NCBI RefSeq assembly: GCF_004114915.1
Contig: NZ_CP022219.1
Coordinates: 186,001 to 250,000, forward strand
Length of the DNA stretch: 64,000 nucleotides
DNA from: Bradyrhizobium guangxiense
Lineage (GTDB): Bacteria; Pseudomonadota; Alphaproteobacteria; Rhizobiales; Xanthobacteraceae
Direction of reading: 5' to 3'
Of the stretch, positions 7,659 through 27,193 are shown in pieces. The position numbers and the translations under genes were made by a program. How positions within the stretch are numbered: position 1 is the stretch's first letter; every line of letters begins with the position of its first letter. The notes below the pieces were generated by a model, which was not told where the DNA came from, did not search any database, and was given only the letters and a program-made list of their open reading frames with translations.

Positions 7659-7791
7659 GAACGGGAAATCCGCCACCAAATCGCCGCATCCGCCGAAGAT
7701 TTGCGCGGCTTTGTGACCTCCGCACCCGGAACGCTCCGCGGCGCCGCCCGTTCTTCGCGTGACGGTCAACGTCTTTGACAGGAGCAGTTCC

Positions 7792-8052
7792 ATGCGAAGC
7801 CTCATCTTGCCTGCCATCGTCGCGATCGGTCTCGGATCGGCTGCGCCGGCGATGGCCTATGACACCGGCGACCAGATCTCGATGCAGGTCGCGCTCGATG
7901 TCGCGGCCGACATCGGCGTCACGACGGTCTCTCACACCCAGTTCCTCGGCGATGAATGGCAGATCGAAGGCCGCGATCGCATCGGGCGCTGGATGGAAGT
8001 CGATGTCGATGCCCGGACCGGCGAGGTCCGCAATGTCGACCGCGGCTGGTAG
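7792..8052 (+). CDS. Small secreted PepSY-domain protein
   Basis: The start is set at ATG 7792 because AGGAG lies 8-12 bases upstream and the protein then opens with a clear signal peptide (MRSLILPAIVAIGLGSAAPAMA, cleavage after AMA). The mature part of about 65 residues is a single PepSY-like unit: SMQVALDVAADIGV, then WQIEGRDRIGRWMEVDVDA and a closing GEVRNVDRGW. Such small periplasmic proteins are thought to inhibit or regulate peptidases, but no function is proven here. It stands alone between a REP-like element and the 3' end of modC, with which it is convergent. Confidence 0.8.
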   Translation: MRSLILPAIVAIGLGSAAPAMAYDTGDQISMQVALDVAADIGVTTVSHTQFLGDEWQIEGRDRIGRWMEVDVDARTGEVRNVDRGW

Positions 8053-8099
8053 CTATTCTTAGCCCGGACTGCGCTTCGCTTCATCCGGCGACAAGTGCC

Positions 8100-8762
8100 T
8101 TACGTCAGCACCTTCACTCCGCCGAAACTCGTGACCCGCCCCTGCTTCAGCATCACGATCTGGGTCGCGAGCTGGCGCAGCTCGGCGGCGTCGTGGCTGA
8201 CATAGACCATCGGCACGTTGGCCTCGTCGCGCAGCCGCACCAGATAGGGCAGGATCTCGAGCTTGCGGCCCTCGTCGAGCGCGCCGAGCGGCTCGTCGAG
8301 CAGCAACAGACGCGGCTTCGACAGCAGCGCGCGGCCGAGCGCGACGCGCTGGCGCTCGCCGCCGGAGAGTCTTCCGGGACGACGGTCCAGCAGGGCGCCG
8401 ATGTCGAGCAGGTCGATGATGCGCTTGTGCTGCGTCTGATCCGGCACAAGGCCGTTCATCCGCCGCCCATAATCGAGATTCTGCGCGACGCTGAGATGCG
8501 GAAACAGGCGCGCGTCCTGGAACACATAGCCGATGCGGCGGCGCCAGGTCGGCACGTGGATGCCGGCCGCGGTGTCGTCGACGGTCTCGCCGTCGATGAC
8601 GATGGTGCCGCGATCGGGCCGCAGCAGGCCGGCGATCATGTTGACCAGCGAGCTCTTGCCCGCGCCCGAGGCGCCGAACAGGCCGATGACGCGGCCCTCG
8701 CCGGTGAAGGAGGCGGACAGCGCGAACTCGCCGAGCTTCTTTTCGACGTCGACCCGCAGCAT
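8100..8762 (-). CDS. modC: Molybdate ABC transporter ATPase, short form
   Basis: ATP-binding subunit of the molybdate importer. Seen are Walker A (FGASGAGKSS), the Q-loop, the ABC signature LSGGERQRVALGRAL and Walker B LLLLDEPLGALD. Start ATG 8762 lies 2 bases beyond the modB stop, which is better than a farther upstream frame start at 8807. The protein ends at about 220 residues, just after the D-loop and H-loop region (VYVSHD...) and a short tail. The C-terminal TOBE/Mop regulatory domain present in typical ModC (about 350 residues) is absent. It is the last gene of modABC. Confidence 0.93.
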   Translation of the reverse strand: MLRVDVEKKLGEFALSASFTGEGRVIGLFGASGAGKSSLVNMIAGLLRPDRGTIVIDGETVDDTAAGIHVPTWRRRIGYVFQDARLFPHLSVAQNLDYGRRMNGLVPDQTQHKRIIDLLDIGALLDRRPGRLSGGERQRVALGRALLSKPRLLLLDEPLGALDEGRKLEILPYLVRLRDEANVPMVYVSHDAAELRQLATQIVMLKQGRVTSFGGVKVLT

Positions 8763-18589: not shown

Positions 18590-19741
18590 TCAATGTCCCA
18601 CCAGGATCGCCTTGCCGACATCCTCATAATGCGTGTCCCGCGCCTGGATCTGCTGGGCGATCGCGTGCATGTCGCGAAACCGCCGCTCGAACGGCTGGCT
18701 GCGAAACACTGCGGTCGCGCCGGCCATGTGATAGGCGGTGTCGACCACGCGCGCGGATTGATGGATGGTCCAGGTCGCGGCGAGGCGGACTGCGCTCCGA
18801 TGCGCGGCGCTGAATTCGCCGGTTGCGCAGAGGTCGCGCCACATCGCATTCGCGGTCGCATAGAGATAAGCGCGCGCGGCACGCAAATCGCCTTCGGTGC
18901 GGCCGATCAGGCCCTGGACCGCGCCGTTGTCGCGCATGGCACGGGCCGCGAGCGAGGGGTGCTTGCCACGCGCCAGCGCGATGGCGGCATCCAGCGTGGC
19001 GCGTGCGACGCCGAGCGAGACCGCGGCAAAACCCAGGCTGAATGTCGCGCCGGTGCCGACCCTGTAGAGCGGGCCGGGCTCGCGCAGTGCGGCCGGCACG
19101 TCGCGAAACGCCGTAAAGCGCTCGGGGATGAAGAGGTCGTGCACCTCATAGGAATCGGTGCCGGTGCCGGCAAGGCCAATCGCCTGCCACACGTCGTGCA
19201 AGATCGCGCTTCCAGCGGGAAACAGGATGGTGCGCAGCTCCGGCGATCCGTCGGCGTTCTTGCGCGGCACCCCGTCAGCGCCCACGATGCGCACATGCGC
19301 GCCGAGCCAGCTCGCCTGCCGCGAGCCCGAGGCAAAATCCCAGCGCGCCGTGACGCGATAGCCGCCCTCGACCGCGTGGGCCTCATGCGCGATCGCACCC
19401 CAGGCGAGGATGCCGGGAGCGGTGTTGAAGATCTGCTGCGCGGTGCCGTGGTCGAGCCAGGCAGCGATCATCGCGCAGACGCTGCACTGGCCGAGGCACC
19501 ACGCCGTGGAGGCATCCGCCTTCGCGATCTCCTCCAGCATCTGCATGAAGATTTCAACGGGCGCCTCGGCGCCGCCGAGGCTCTGCGGCAGCAGCGCCCG
19601 ATAGAGCCCGTTCTCGATCAGGGCGTTCACGACGATCGGCGTCAGCTGACGGGTGCGCTCGATCTCGTCGGCCTCGCGCGCAATCATTGGCGCGATCGCG
19701 CTGGCACGTTCGACCAGGTCAAGTCCGGCAATAGCGTCCAT
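18590..19741 (-). CDS. Acyl-CoA dehydrogenase-fold flavoprotein (HsaA/DszC-like)
   Basis: The 383-residue protein has the acyl-CoA dehydrogenase fold: N-terminal helical domain (LPQSLGGAEAPVEIFMQMLEE), middle beta domain (GYRVTARWDFASGSRQASWLG) and C-terminal helical domain of the Acyl-CoA_dh_2 type (AARAYLYATANAMWRDL...AYHMAGATAVFRSQPFERRFRDMHAI). This branch contains flavin-dependent monooxygenases and hydroxylases such as HsaA and DszC as well as true dehydrogenases. No catalytic glutamate typical of fatty acyl-CoA dehydrogenases is evident, so a reduced-flavin monooxygenase is more likely. No flavin reductase gene is adjacent. The substrate is unknown. Confidence 0.85.
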   Translation of the reverse strand: MDAIAGLDLVERASAIAPMIAREADEIERTRQLTPIVVNALIENGLYRALLPQSLGGAEAPVEIFMQMLEEIAKADASTAWCLGQCSVCAMIAAWLDHGTAQQIFNTAPGILAWGAIAHEAHAVEGGYRVTARWDFASGSRQASWLGAHVRIVGADGVPRKNADGSPELRTILFPAGSAILHDVWQAIGLAGTGTDSYEVHDLFIPERFTAFRDVPAALREPGPLYRVGTGATFSLGFAAVSLGVARATLDAAIALARGKHPSLAARAMRDNGAVQGLIGRTEGDLRAARAYLYATANAMWRDLCATGEFSAAHRSAVRLAATWTIHQSARVVDTAYHMAGATAVFRSQPFERRFRDMHAIAQQIQARDTHYEDVGKAILVGH

Positions 19742-20063
19742 GCGCCTTCCTCGCTCATTCTTCGTGAGCTGTGAGAGGCGCGGATGGTGGTCTATTTGGT
19801 CGGAAGGATCAAGACGGAGTGTGCCGTCATTCCAGGCTCGCCTAAATGCGCTGCCGGAACGACAGTCGATGCGCGCGATCCGCTCGGCGCCGCTGATTTC
19901 GGAAGCTCCACGATACGCATCAAGGCAACATCTGTTTTGAGGAATCTCAAGCTGGGAACGCTTGCTCGTTGCGTCCGCCTGTTCAGCCTCGCGAGCCGTT
20001 GATCTGCCTCAAAGGCGATGGCGGCGGTGCTCCTATGCTGCGTCGATCGAGAGGAGCGCGCCG
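19742..20063. other. Intergenic stretch upstream of the MAT/exporter block
   Basis: A 322-base divergent gap with no supported gene; short frames here lack a start site or protein character. It is expected to hold the promoter of the block starting at 20064. Bases about 19825-19868 resemble a decayed type A REP-like palindrome (GTCATTCCAGGC...GCCGGAACGAC). Confidence 0.55.
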
Positions 20064-20318
20064 ATGTCCGTGCAGGATCATTCCGCTTATCCGGAGCGGC
20101 ATGCCGAGGGTATGTCCATAAAGGCCAAGGCCGGCCTGGTCCTGATCGGGTTTCTGGCCATCGCCGGCGTACTGCTGTTCACCGAGCACAGGGCTCATGT
20201 GCTCGGATTGCTGGTCTGGCTTCCGCTTCTCGCCTGTCCGCTGATGCACGTCTTCATGCACGGCGGACATGATCATCATCACGGCGGCGGCCGGCCGGAC
20301 GATTCGAGGAGGGCGTGA
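20064..20318 (+). CDS. DUF2933 small membrane protein, His-rich tail
   Basis: The start is ATG 20064, with GAGGAG at 20051-20056. The 84-residue protein has a hydrophilic N-terminus and two hydrophobic segments (AGLVLIGFLAIAGVLLF and VLGLLVWLPLLACPLMHVF). It ends in a histidine-rich tail MHGGHDHHHGGG that could bind metal. This matches the DUF2933 pattern, a family often encoded beside isoprenylcysteine-methyltransferase-like membrane proteins, as here: its stop overlaps the next gene by 4 bases. The function is unknown. Confidence 0.85.
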   Translation: MSVQDHSAYPERHAEGMSIKAKAGLVLIGFLAIAGVLLFTEHRAHVLGLLVWLPLLACPLMHVFMHGGHDHHHGGGRPDDSRRA

Positions 20319-20995
20319 TGCACGACACCGCGCCTGCCTACGGCCTCTGGAGCCTCGTCATCGTCAACTCGGCGGTGTTCATCCTGTTTGCCTACAGCTT
20401 CTTCAAGCCGCAGACCTCGCGCGACTGGCGCTCCTTCGGCGCCTTCAGCGCGTTCCTGGTGGCGCTGTTCGCGGAGATGTACGGCTTCCCGCTCACTATC
20501 TACGTCCTGTCGGGCTGGCTGCAGTCGCGCTATCCGAACATCGACTGGTTCTCCCACGACGCCGGCCATCTGCTCGAGATGATGTTCGGTTGGAAGACCA
20601 ATCCGCACGCCGGGCCGTTCCACGTTCTCAGCTTCATCCTCATCGCCGCCGGCTTCATCCTGATCTCGGCCGCCTGGCGGGTGCTGTACGAGGCGCAGCA
20701 GACCCGGAGCCTCGCCACCACCGGCCCCTACAGATACGTCAGGCATCCGCAATATGTCGGCTTCATCCTGGTGATGTTCGGCTTCCTGTTGCAGTGGCCG
20801 ACGATTCTTACGCTGGCGATGTTTCCGGTACTGACCGTCATGTACGTCCGCCTGGCGAGAAACGAGGAGAAGGACGCGCGAGCCGAATTTGGCGTCGCCT
20901 ATGACAAATATGCGGCCGACGTTCCGGGCTTCATTCCGAAGCTGAGCCGGCTGCTCAGCCAGGAATCCAGCGGAGGTTATCGCCATGGCCAATAG
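20315..20995 (+). CDS. ICMT-like membrane methyltransferase
   Basis: The 226-residue protein has about five membrane helices. It ends with the signature of the phospholipid/isoprenylcysteine carboxyl methyltransferase superfamily: TGPYRYVRHPQYVGFILVMF, then RLARNEEKDARAEFGVAYDKYAADVPGFIP. In characterised members this region forms the SAM pocket (RHPxY and the EE pair). It should methylate a lipid, small molecule or protein carboxylate at the membrane; the substrate cannot be read. Its ATG overlaps the DUF2933 stop (ATGA), implying coupled translation. A SAM synthetase gene begins 59 bases downstream, making a supply link plausible but unproven. Confidence 0.86.
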   Translation: MMHDTAPAYGLWSLVIVNSAVFILFAYSFFKPQTSRDWRSFGAFSAFLVALFAEMYGFPLTIYVLSGWLQSRYPNIDWFSHDAGHLLEMMFGWKTNPHAGPFHVLSFILIAAGFILISAAWRVLYEAQQTRSLATTGPYRYVRHPQYVGFILVMFGFLLQWPTILTLAMFPVLTVMYVRLARNEEKDARAEFGVAYDKYAADVPGFIPKLSRLLSQESSGGYRHGQ

Positions 20996-21054
20996 ACAGG
21001 CTTTGGCTCGATGTCGACGTGCAGGCGGTTTGATGAACGCTGTGGTCTAATCTC

Positions 21055-22239
21055 ATGTTCGAGCTTGTTGTTTCGCGGCTGGAGGCTGCCGACGATGTTG
21101 AAGTCGTCGAGCGCAAGGGCCTCGGACATCCGGACACCATCTGCGATGCTCTTGCCGAGACGTTGTCCCGCAACCTCTGTCGGGAATACCGCAGCCGGTT
21201 CGGCCGCGTGCTGCATCACAATGTCGATAAGGCGCTGTTGTGTGCCGGCAAAGCCGCTCCGGCCTTCGGGGGCGGTCGCGTGATCGAACCGATAAGGATC
21301 CTACTGGCCGGGCGCGCGATCGCCGATGAGACGATCCCGATCGCGGAGATCGCGGTCGAAGGCTCCAGGTCGTGGTTGAAGACAAATCTTCACGCGCTGG
21401 ATCCGGATCGTGATGTCCGCTTCGAGGCCCTGGTTCGGCAGGGGTCACAGGATCTGCAGGCACTGTTCTCGCGCCGGGATCCGGAAGGCCTTCCGCTGGC
21501 CAATGATACGTCGTTCGGGGTCGGGCACGCTCCATTGAGCGCGGTCGAACGGCTCGTATTGGCCGTCGACCGGCAACTGCACGGCCGCGCCCGTACCCAC
21601 GACCATCCGGCTTGGGGCGAGGATATCAAGGTCATGGCAGTGCGAAAAGGCACATGGCTCAGGCTCACGGTCGCCTGCGCGATGATCGGACGATATCTCG
21701 CCGGTATCGACGACTATCTCGAACAGAAGGCTGCCCTCGCGGCCTGGGTCCGTGGATGTGCTGGCGAGCATGGGTTTGCAGAGTGCGAGGTCGTCGTCAA
21801 TGCGGCGGACGACATTGAATCCGGAAGCGTCTATCTGACGGTTACCGGCACGTCCGCAGAAGGTGGAGATGATGGCCAAGTCGGACGCGGCAATCGCGTC
21901 AACGGGCTGATCACGCCGTGCAGGCCGATGAGCCTGGAGGCCGCCGCAGGCAAGAACCCCGTCAGCCATGTCGGCAAGATCTACAACGTCCTAGCGGCCC
22001 GGACGGCCGAAAAGCTGGTCTCCCTGATTCCGGAGGTTAAGGAAGCGCGGTGTCTGATCGTCAGCAAGATCGGCGCGCCGGTAGACCATCCGGCTCTCGT
22101 CCATCTCCATTTGGCGATGCAGCAGGGCGTCCCGCTGGAGCAGGTCAAGACACGGACCGAAGAAGTGGTCGCCGCTCAGTTTGACCAAATTTCCGAGCTC
22201 ATCAACGAGCTCGTTACCGGAACGACCGGGGTCTTCTGA
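21055..22239 (+). CDS. Archaeal-type methionine adenosyltransferase
   Basis: The 394-residue protein matches the archaeal S-adenosylmethionine synthetase family (AdoMet_Synthase, as in Methanocaldococcus MJ1208), not bacterial MetK. Diagnostic stretches are [18 protein letters not shown] (18-35), VLHHNVDKA (52-60), FGGG (71-74), ILLAGRA (82-88), [15 protein letters not shown] (148-162), GEDIKVM (188-194), [20 protein letters not shown] (262-281), then [20 protein letters not shown] (290-309). It makes SAM from methionine and ATP in the cytosol. Nothing needed for catalysis appears missing. No strong ribosome site is seen before the ATG. It sits between a SAM-type membrane methyltransferase and an ABC export system on the same strand. 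Two GC hairpins (22252-22268 and about 22269-22282) lie just after its stop. Confidence 0.93.
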
Positions 22240-22364
22240 ACCCGACGCGCTCGGCCGATGTCCGGCCGCGGTTGTCCGACCGAGGCCAAGGGTGCCTGGA
22301 CTCTGAGGTAAATCAATACGGCACCGCCGCAAGCGTTGCAGGCTGTCCTCAAGAGGAGAGTCCA

Positions 22365-23072
<708 letters not shown>

Positions 23073-23076
23073 CGTC

Positions 23077-25440
<2,364 letters not shown>

Positions 25441-25442
25441 CC

Positions 25443-26681
25443 ATGCCCGCAAACTGGACCAAACGCATCATCGGCATCGCGCTCGTGGCCGCGATCCTCG
25501 GGGGGCTCGCCTGGTTCGCCTGGCCGCGGCCGGTGCTGGTCGATCTCGCGGCCGTGGCGAAGGGACCGATCGAGGTCACGGCGGACGACGACGGCAAGAC
25601 CCGCGTGCGCCACGTCTACACGGTGTCGGCGCCGATCGCGGGCAAGGTGCTGAGGATATCGCATCCACTCGGCGAGCAAGGACCCTCGCTCCATGTCGGC
25701 GACGAGGTCGTCGCCAACCAGACCGTCGCCCTGATGCAGCCCACGCTGCCCGGCTTCATCGATGCGCGATCCCGCGATCAGTTGCAGGCGGAGGTCTTGG
25801 CCGCCGACGCCGCCATCCAGCAGCAGGAGGCGGAAGTGCAGCGGATCGAAGCCGCGCTCGACTTCTCGCGGACCGAGTTGCAGCGCTCGCAGACCTTGTT
25901 GCGGACGCAGTCCACCTCTGCCCAGGCCTACGACAAGGCGAAATTCGAAGTCGCCACCAACGAGGCCGCCTTGAAGAGCGCCAAGGCCCAGGTCGAGATG
26001 CGCCGCGCGGTGCGCACTAGCCTGGCGGCGCGGCTGATGGACCCGGCGAGCGCCGCTCCGTCGGCGGAGCCGACCTGCTGCATCCGCGTGCTGACGCCGG
26101 CAAGCGGGCGCGTGCTGAAGATCATCCAGGACAGCGAGACCACGGTGCTGCCGGGAACGCCGCTGGTCGATATCGGTAACCCGCTCGATCTCGAGGTCGT
26201 GGCCGATCTGCTCTCGACCGATGCCGTCCAGGTCAAGGTCGGCGCGCCGGTGCGGATCGATGGCTGGGGCGGACAGCCCATCCGGGGGAAGGTGGTCCGG
26301 GTCGACCCCGCCGGATTCCTGAAGGTCTCGGCGCTCGGCATCGAGGAGCAGCGGGTCCGCGTCACCATCGATTTCAGCGATCCGCCCGAGAATTGGGTCA
26401 CGCTCGGACACGACTATCGCGTCGTGGTCCACGTCACCACCTGGAGCGCTCCGGACGCTCTCACCGTGCCGGTGAGCGCCTTGTTCCGGCAAGGCGGTCA
26501 GTGGGCCGTCTTCGTCGACGAGAACGGCCGCGCCAGGACGGCTCCGGTGCAGATCGGTCACCGCAGCAGCCGCACCGCCGAAGTTGTCGCAGGACTCGCC
26601 GCAGGCGATCGCGTCGTGCTGCATCCGAGCGACCGGATCAGCCACGGCATCAGGATCGCGCAGCGAGCCGTCGCTCCATGA
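25443..26681 (+). CDS. HlyD/RND-type periplasmic adaptor
   Basis: Start ATG 25443 is 2 bases after the permease stop. The 412-residue protein has an N-terminal anchor helix (IIGIALVAAILGGLAWFAW), a first lipoyl/barrel-sandwich half (VSAPIAGKVLRISHPLGEQG), a long coiled coil (about 115-195, QLQAEVLAADAAIQQQEAEVQRIEA), the second lipoyl half (LTPASGRVLKIIQDSETTVL), a beta-barrel and a membrane-proximal domain (TVPVSALFRQGGQWAVFV). It would bridge the FtsX permease to an outer-membrane channel; no TolC-like gene is in the window, so a channel encoded elsewhere would be needed. Its last 32 bases overlap the 3' end of the opposing GNAT gene. Confidence 0.93.
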   Translation: MPANWTKRIIGIALVAAILGGLAWFAWPRPVLVDLAAVAKGPIEVTADDDGKTRVRHVYTVSAPIAGKVLRISHPLGEQGPSLHVGDEVVANQTVALMQPTLPGFIDARSRDQLQAEVLAADAAIQQQEAEVQRIEAALDFSRTELQRSQTLLRTQSTSAQAYDKAKFEVATNEAALKSAKAQVEMRRAVRTSLAARLMDPASAAPSAEPTCCIRVLTPASGRVLKIIQDSETTVLPGTPLVDIGNPLDLEVVADLLSTDAVQVKVGAPVRIDGWGGQPIRGKVVRVDPAGFLKVSALGIEEQRVRVTIDFSDPPENWVTLGHDYRVVVHVTTWSAPDALTVPVSALFRQGGQWAVFVDENGRARTAPVQIGHRSSRTAEVVAGLAAGDRVVLHPSDRISHGIRIAQRAVAP

Positions 26682-27123
26682 TGATGGTGCGTTCGTCGTC
26701 ATAATAGCTGTCGCGCACCGCCTTGAACCCGAGCCGCGCGTAGAAGGTCTCGGCAGTGACCGACGAAGGAACGGTCAAGGACGGGATGTTCCGCGCGCGT
26801 GCGGTCCGTTCGATCTCGGCCATCAGCAGCTTGCCGATCCCGCGCGCCTGGACGTCGGGCGCCACGAAGACGGTGCGGACGACGCTGTCGTCGAGGCTTG
26901 CCGCGCCGACGATGCGGTTGCCAAGGGTGGCAACGAAGACGGTGCGTTTTCCGATCAGCTGCCGCACCGCGTCCGCACTGAAGCTGCGCTCGACCCGTGC
27001 GATGATCGCGTCCGTATAGTCCTTCGCATTGGTCTCGCGCAGCGCCCGCAGGATGACGGCACTGATGTCACCGGCGTCGTCGTCGTGCGCGGGCCGGATC
27101 GTGCAGTCTATGGTTTGCTCCAT
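26650..27123 (-). CDS. GNAT-family N-acetyltransferase
   Basis: The start is placed at ATG 27123 (MEQTIDCTIRPAHDDDAG); a frame start at 27189 adds 22 poorly coding residues. The 157-residue protein is a single GNAT domain, with the acetyl-CoA loop in VFVAPDVQARGIGKLLMAEI (Q/R-x-x-G-x-G/A motif) and the closing FYARLGFKAV segment. The acceptor is unknown. Its 3' end overlaps the 3' end of the HlyD-like gene by 32 bases, tail to tail. Confidence 0.88.
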   Translation of the reverse strand: MEQTIDCTIRPAHDDDAGDISAVILRALRETNAKDYTDAIIARVERSFSADAVRQLIGKRTVFVATLGNRIVGAASLDDSVVRTVFVAPDVQARGIGKLLMAEIERTARARNIPSLTVPSSVTAETFYARLGFKAVRDSYYDDERTIIMERRLAARS

Positions 27124-27193
27124 TGAGGCCTTCGAGGACGACTGCGCCGCCTGCGCCCCGGCCGCGCTCATCAGGGGACATTTCGACAACGTC

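Follow-up and report, generated by a model that had tools for sequence, protein, structure and literature searches.

Bradyrhizobium guangxiense is a soil bacterium and a relative of the soybean symbionts. The closest described counterpart of the locus analyzed here, a block of six genes within a 64,000-nucleotide stretch (hereafter, the window) of its genome (8.2 Mb in two contigs), is the bll7986-bsl7992 group of Bradyrhizobium diazoefficiens USDA110. The two blocks are orthologous and share gene order, annotations and FixK2 boxes, as far as the available parts of PMC9104804 describe them. There, the seven USDA110 genes are FixK2-dependent and form three units, bsl7992-bll7991-bll7990, bll7989, and bll7988-bll7987-bll7986. 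When a fixK2 deletion mutant was compared with the wild type in microoxia, expression changed -23.0-fold for bsl7992, -22.8-fold for bll7991, -19.7-fold for bll7990, -5.3-fold for bll7989 (mat), -33.1-fold for bll7988, -17.4-fold for bll7987 and -5.6-fold for bll7986 (PMC9104804). USDA110 keeps bll7990, whose counterpart has been lost from the window. The same parts of that article give no function for bll7986-bsl7992, and none was recognized for this block in the open-access literature searched, part of whose matches were examined. The locus is organized as follows:

19937..19950, + strand: upstream FixK/FNR box TTGAGGAATCTCAA, from a pattern search
19999..20012, + strand: main FixK/FNR box TTGATCTGCCTCAA, located 51 bases ahead of the DUF2933 start, from a pattern search
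20064..20318, + strand: DUF2933 small membrane protein with a Cys/Met/His-rich tail (PF11666, 77.8 bits); orthologue of bsl7992, judged from gene order and the published annotation
20315..20995, + strand: ICMT/PEMT-type membrane methyltransferase (PF04191/PF04140, PEMT/ICMT 37.9/34.6 bits), 88% identical to USDA110 bll7991
20985..21050, + strand: remnant of the beginning of a bll7990-like (P19/FetP-fold) gene that has been lost, from comparison with locus L003
21055..22239, + strand: archaeal-family methionine adenosyltransferase (MAT; PF01941, AdoMet_Synthase 503.3 bits; NF003366; PDB relatives), counterpart of bll7989
22303..22316, + strand: imperfect FixK box CTGAGGTAAATCAA ahead of the ATPase gene, in the 125-base gap
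22365..23072, + strand: ATP-binding cassette (ABC) ATPase of the LolD/MacB/DevA kind (PF00005, ABC_tran 122 bits)
23077..25440, + strand: duplicated FtsX-type (Type VII) permease of 787 residues (PF02687 in two stretches, FtsX 91.7 bits)
25443..26681, + strand: MacA/HlyD-like periplasmic adaptor (HlyD_3 35.7 bits; best PDB match MacA)
26076..26081, + strand: codons of the adaptor vicinal pair Cys212-Cys213, from adaptor alignments

The explanation that we propose, and to which we give about an even chance, is a FixK2/FNR-activated export cassette of the envelope for low oxygen, probably metal-linked and with an optional supply of S-adenosylmethionine (SAM). FixK2/FNR would activate the cassette in low oxygen; its core would comprise the DUF2933 protein, the ICMT-type methyltransferase and a tripartite-type ABC exporter with a Cys-pair adaptor. 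The MAT would be an accessory gene that entered the cassette in at least two lineages, and it would most likely add SAM for the neighboring methyltransferase when the cassette is induced. The cassette is real, conserved and regulated, and it already lies within a published regulon; what is new here is its comparative anatomy, the optional and repeated linkage of the MAT, the adaptor dithiol, and the P19-like companion.

A previous sequence-only reading of the window had described six + strand genes in this order, and both the open reading frame coordinates and the Pfam matches bear it out. The 4-base overlap that it gave for the DUF2933 and ICMT-like genes holds with the GTG start at 20315 and shrinks to 1 base with the ATG start at 20318, and the ATPase, permease and adaptor genes are indeed separated by 4 and 2 bases.

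Regulation by low oxygen via FixK2/FNR is absent from that reading. Perfect TTGAN6TCAA boxes occur twice in the 64-kb window, against 0.24 expected, and both lie just 5' of the DUF2933 gene. The FixK2 consensus TTGA/C-N6-T/GCAA given in the available parts of PMC9104804 is matched at 19937 and 19999. The published USDA110 boxes are TTGATCTGCGTCAA, at -59 ahead of bsl7992, and CTGATCTAAATCAA, at -66 ahead of bll7988 (PMC9104804), and the box of L139, the locus taken as B. diazoefficiens USDA110, is the same as the published one. Of the 38 genus cassettes with DUF2933, 34 show a box roughly 60 bases ahead of that gene (1.44 expected; positions computed for an assumed DUF2933 gene of 255 bases), whereas L151, L179, L184 and L187 show none there. 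A possible break had been suspected at the 125-base gap that separates the MAT from the ATPase gene, and rightly so, since USDA110 has a promoter there (PMC9104804, in part); the window has the imperfect box CTGAGGTAAATCAA. At order level, 11 of 39 exporter loci have a box ahead of the ATPase gene, where 0.68 would be expected. With control published for the orthologues and boxes conserved here, FixK/FNR control can be predicted with near certainty. A predicted alphaproteobacterial FixK regulon also includes HlyD-family and ABC genes, which may or may not be of the present family (PMC2908626, in part).

The MAT motifs named in the sequence-only reading, which had assigned the 394-residue protein to the archaeal family and not to MetK, are kept when it is aligned to solved archaeal-family enzymes, and the profiles agree: residues 12-389 match PF01941 with 503.3 bits (curated cut-off 27) and there is no PF02773 domain. 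In NCBIfam, the protein exceeds the cut-off of subfamily NF003366 (525 vs 435 bits) and stays below those of four PF01941-type equivalogs among the matches listed. By its sequence, it is thus an archaeal-family AdoMet synthetase. It is the sole PF01941 gene found in the genome, which has one bacterial MetK-type gene (PF02773) at another site, so that the MAT is, again by profile, the second SAM synthetase gene of the genome. Its nearest named relative in the MAT search belongs to Bradyrhizobium sp. cir1 (97% identical). Recent transfer from archaea was considered and discarded: in a quick tree of 48 MATs the window protein nests among bacterial rows, and therefore "archaeal-family" is right and "archaeal" misleading. 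Neither did the idea of a Cys-poor stand-in for MetK, proof against copper or nitric oxide, survive in its simple form, as the MAT has 8 Cys, of which three are conserved in 30 or more of 31 relatives.

How tightly the MAT belongs to the block is another matter. The sequence-only reading had it embedded there; the linkage stands, core membership does not. We collected 40 further genus loci on the criterion of a permease, complete or fragmented, with at least 64% identity to that of the window. Of these, 37 have the DUF2933 and ICMT genes and 7 the MAT (with the window, 38/41 and 8/41); L140, L144 and L152 lack the pair, L152 being a contig end. The idea that the exporter always includes the MAT was rejected on the same 8/41, and the cassette is devoid of a MAT at 30 of the 37 further loci where the ICMT gene is present. 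Counted from the other side, 13 of 265 genomes of the genus gave a MAT match, with 11 full-length copies in ten and fragments alone in three; eight of the 11 are located inside an exporter cassette and the copies of genomes G353, G391 and G446 outside. Genome G317 contains two diverged cassette copies (L146 and L155), with a MAT in each.

These stand-alone copies favor an explanation in which the MAT meets a general low-oxygen demand for SAM (by radical-SAM enzymes such as HemN, or by heme/quinone methylation) or replaces a poorly working MetK, the exporter being merely adjacent under similar control. It would also account for the USDA110 MAT having its own unit and FixK2 box, and other FixK2 targets include hemN2 and ppsA (PMC9104804, in part), the latter also found near the MAT on two plasmids. 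One stand-alone MAT, L158, has a perfect box about 60 bases upstream, and another, in L004 (1951-3306, - strand, B. japonicum in8p8), has a NosD-family gene nearby. However, the MAT repeatedly adjoins the same exporter and ICMT gene, and with a MAT match in 13/265 genomes the genus mostly lives microoxically without one; we consider this explanation possible but rather unlikely. After the NosD-family gene, L004 has two long genes that, by length alone, are maybe nosZ and nosR.

Outside the window, conserved linkage of the MAT to the exporter was found in Bradyrhizobium, Bosea, Mesorhizobium, Aestuariivirga and Hyphomicrobium (two arrangements). The two outcomes that the sequence-only reading had named as refuting it, a better score with MetK and a lack of linkage in other genomes, were thus both not observed. 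On a Bosea plasmid the MAT stands alongside the exporter with an ICMT-like frame nearby. Two Mesorhizobium metagenome-assembled genomes (MAGs) have MAT and exporter with gaps of 0-29 bases, and in an Aestuariivirga MAG the orientation of the exporter is turned round. A Hyphomicrobium MAG contains MAT and exporter twice, 1 base apart; its MAT is a distant one, no ICMT gene lies within reach, and this pair falls in a separate part of the MAT tree. On that tree, the label "ICMT plus exporter" needs at least five changes (gains or losses), four of them forced by starred branches. Within the stretch analyzed around 94 MAT loci, the ICMT gene is present in 18 and the permease in 14, and the ICMT gene occurs without the exporter in 6. 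Other ICMT homologues of the window genome reach at most 35.5 bits, so chance MAT-ICMT neighbors are unlikely. The neighbor-gene tally of the MAT loci covers 125 of 200 listed genes and 11 of 16 loci.

At the level of the order, 83 of 297 genomes have a permease match (E 1e-100 or better), 5 a PF01941 match (two fragments) and 31 DUF2933. DUF2933 and ICMT genes were found within the stretch in two (L204 and L205) of 40 order-level exporter loci; L163, a further case, came from the MAT search. Thus, it is the ATPase-permease-adaptor trio that is widely distributed; within the genus the DUF2933-ICMT pair is also steady, and the MAT varies most.

In other cassettes, the interval from the ICMT to the ATPase gene is occupied by bll7990-like genes, genes for a membrane protein of about 155 residues, or OpgC-type or P-type ATPase genes. 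The OpgC-type gene was recognized in L176 (7154-8287), with similar frames in L182 and L183, the L176 protein alone having been scanned. The protein of about 155 residues stands beside the ICMT gene in MAT-less cassettes (L138, L143, L148, L154, L180, L185 and others), and the one that was scanned gave a weak TauE-like match.

Such varying contents would be expected if the MAT, the DUF2933-ICMT pair, P-type ATPases and the exporter were separate stress or metal modules hitch-hiking on mobile islands, with no common pathway. Plasmids do indeed carry accessory MATs next to stress genes, those for copper and mercury among them. Likewise, the same two families, DUF2933 and ICMT, adjoin each other in copA islands, in company with MerR, CopA and a cupredoxin protein; the available parts of PMC8478169 mention no MAT or FtsX exporter there, and their expression data cover copA, merR, copC and copD, not the DUF2933-ICMT pair. 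Against mere hitch-hiking stand the gaps of 0-29 bases in Mesorhizobium and of 1 base in Hyphomicrobium, the gene order and box that are conserved across the genus, and the linkage in separate parts of the MAT tree. We therefore regard it as unlikely.

The exporter itself contains an FtsX/MacB-type permease, an ABC ATPase and a MacA-type adaptor, and resembles MacAB-TolC in the permease and in the adaptor, whose best PDB match is MacA. Unlike in MacAB-TolC, the ATPase is encoded by a separate gene (22365-23072), the permease lacks an ATPase domain and is duplicated in one chain, and the aligned stretch of MacA has no Cys pair. No TolC-type channel gene is found among the six genes, the genome not having been searched for one. 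The permease model (predicted local distance difference test score, pLDDT, 85.9) is nearest in fold to YbbP and BceB, followed by Lol, HrtB and MacB proteins; we counted eight long, membrane-length helices on it, whereas YbbP has ten (PMC12646458, in part). The partner encoded after the permease is here an adaptor and not a TesA hydrolase as in YbbAP-TesA. To judge from homology and fold, the ABC-adaptor machine very probably works like MacAB or other Type VII systems.

DevBCA exports heterocyst glycolipids. The best NCBIfam match of the ATPase is DevA, below the cut-off (208.7 vs 295.8 bits), and the adaptor also stays below that of DevB (43.3 vs 129 bits), so neither model classes the present system as DevBCA. 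Nevertheless, the DevA score, together with the folds nearest to the permease, could be read by analogy as a sign of lipid export: an ICMT-type enzyme would methylate a lipid that the exporter moves to the outer membrane in low oxygen, with no metal involved. The ICMT-like protein resembles the lipid methyltransferase families PEMT and LmtA, and YbbAP-TesA extracts hydrophobic compounds (PMC12646458, in part). The protein exceeds the PF04140 cut-off (34.6 vs 24 bits), falls short of the ICMT equivalog NF040696 (43.9 vs 160 bits) and is far below the cut-offs of both the LmtA and MddA models. Lipid export gives no role to the Cys pair, to the Cys/Met/His tail or to the P19-like companion, and it appears improbable to us.

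These three features are those that point to metal in the explanation we prefer. The window adaptor has two Cys, 212 and 213, and the permease zero. In the last 395 residues of the order-level adaptors, exactly two Cys, paired, are present in 40/40; in the same part of the genus adaptors the pair is present in 40/41 (the exception being L152, the contig end) and exactly two Cys in 39/41. Adaptors beside remote paralogous permeases have the pair in 0/15 cases. This comparison took 21 loci: the 15 remote ones, five nearer (four CC, one CxC), and L252, which gave no adaptor. One of the 15, L167, is a second, paralogous trio in the window genome (C1:4060000-4078000), with a permease 39% identical and an adaptor without Cys. 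A phylum-wide draw gave adaptor relatives in 37 of 398 genomes; among 30 loci, 13 have CC in register, one CxC, one CxxC and the rest neither, the CC string of L282 being excluded as out of register. The adaptor Cys pair may serve in metal binding or as a redox switch.

The DUF2933 tail CPLMHxFMH is present in 13 of the 14 rows shown. The bll7990-like gene would encode a protein with a predicted P19/FetP/CrdA-like fold, that of copper/iron proteins; a profile search of the PDB with the family gave no match. It goes with the MAT, being present in 7/7 cassettes with MAT vs 4/33 without (counts that ignore kinship). Campylobacter FetMP-FetABCDEF offers a likeness, as its cluster includes a P19/FetP protein, CXXC thiol proteins and an ABC transporter whose substrate is unclear; it is iron- and not oxygen-regulated, and the available parts of PMC10783030 mention no adaptor, ICMT or MAT.

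L003, the closest relative of the window, has 548 bases where the window has 3. Counterparts of an acyl-CoA-dehydrogenase-like gene (18590-19741, - strand) and a GNAT acetyltransferase gene (26650-27189, - strand) of the window flank the L003 cassette, which places the cassette at the same site in both genomes. In L003, an LTXXQ-family (Spy-like) gene (7708-8385) lies directly upstream of the DUF2933 gene.

Of 34 accessory MAT genes, 18 have P-type ATPase homologues in the vicinity, 11 with CPC and two weak (74 and 118 bits), with a query that also catches ATPases without the CPC motif; they are near none of 60 other MAT loci, many of which have short flanks, so this is partly a length effect. 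In L090 (11944-16609; Cupriavidus pinatubonensis plasmid p2), a MAT 41% identical to that of the window is followed by heavy-metal P-type ATPase, YHS and DUF2933 proteins, and a perfect FNR-type box lies upstream of the MAT. Metal stress, raised in the sequence-only reading, gains only indirect backing, from the Cys-pair adaptor, the Cys/Met/His tail, the P19-like companion elsewhere and the copper-type ATPases near some MATs though not near that of the window.

Several observations weigh against the cassette as we propose it. Close to the window MAT there is no P-type ATPase homologue, and the window has lost the P19-like gene by a deletion of about 550 bases. The MAT is absent from 33 of the 40 further genus cassettes and the DUF2933-ICMT pair from the stretch analyzed around 38 of 40 order-level exporters, so neither is needed for export. 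A perfect FixK-type box precedes the MAT gene in 7 of 92 loci (about 1.65 expected), too weak a signal for the idea of a box before each MAT gene, which was dropped. Among 16 remote paralogous trios, which lack the Cys pair, 5 also have such a box ahead of the ATPase gene; control by low oxygen is therefore not peculiar to this exporter family. Related genomes are not independent, close pairs within the 34 accessory MAT loci being window/L003, L005/L139, L012/L013 and L041/L050. Finally, array clones over USDA110 8763900-8786820, a region that by its mapped positions includes this block, were repressed in bacteroids (PMC5017801, in part), which is ill suited to a function needed in low-oxygen nodules. 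In a blr7984 mutant, the same source reports bll7990 up 2.7-fold, bll7991 up 2.5-fold and bll7986 down to 0.20. The locus tags of the block were not found in the main text of PMC8951191 (on copper) or PMC10888616, and PMC6515984 and PMC6710368 show bll7981/bll7982 alone from this neighborhood.

On balance, a connection of the cassette with metal, copper(I) most likely, could go either way. That the MAT product serves the cassette methyltransferase, as the linkage suggests, we propose tentatively and at somewhat less than even chance. It is doubtful that what the exporter carries is the methylated product itself. More speculative still, and quite improbable, would be a new exporter class, a low-oxygen tripartite ABC pump handling copper(I) or a thiol-bound metal complex via the adaptor dithiol, in which the repeatedly recruited MAT and ICMT-type enzyme methylate an exported carrier.

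With the dithiol, the optional MAT and the P19-like companion, FixK2-dependent genes of the model soybean symbiont gain concrete hypotheses. They raise the questions of whether a dedicated metal or lipid efflux pump operates in low oxygen, and of why a second, archaeal-family SAM synthetase is kept with it. Cells in low oxygen also build copper enzymes, among them the cbb3 oxidase and nitrous oxide reductase; the copper link, if true, would tie oxygen sensing to copper handling in these same cells.

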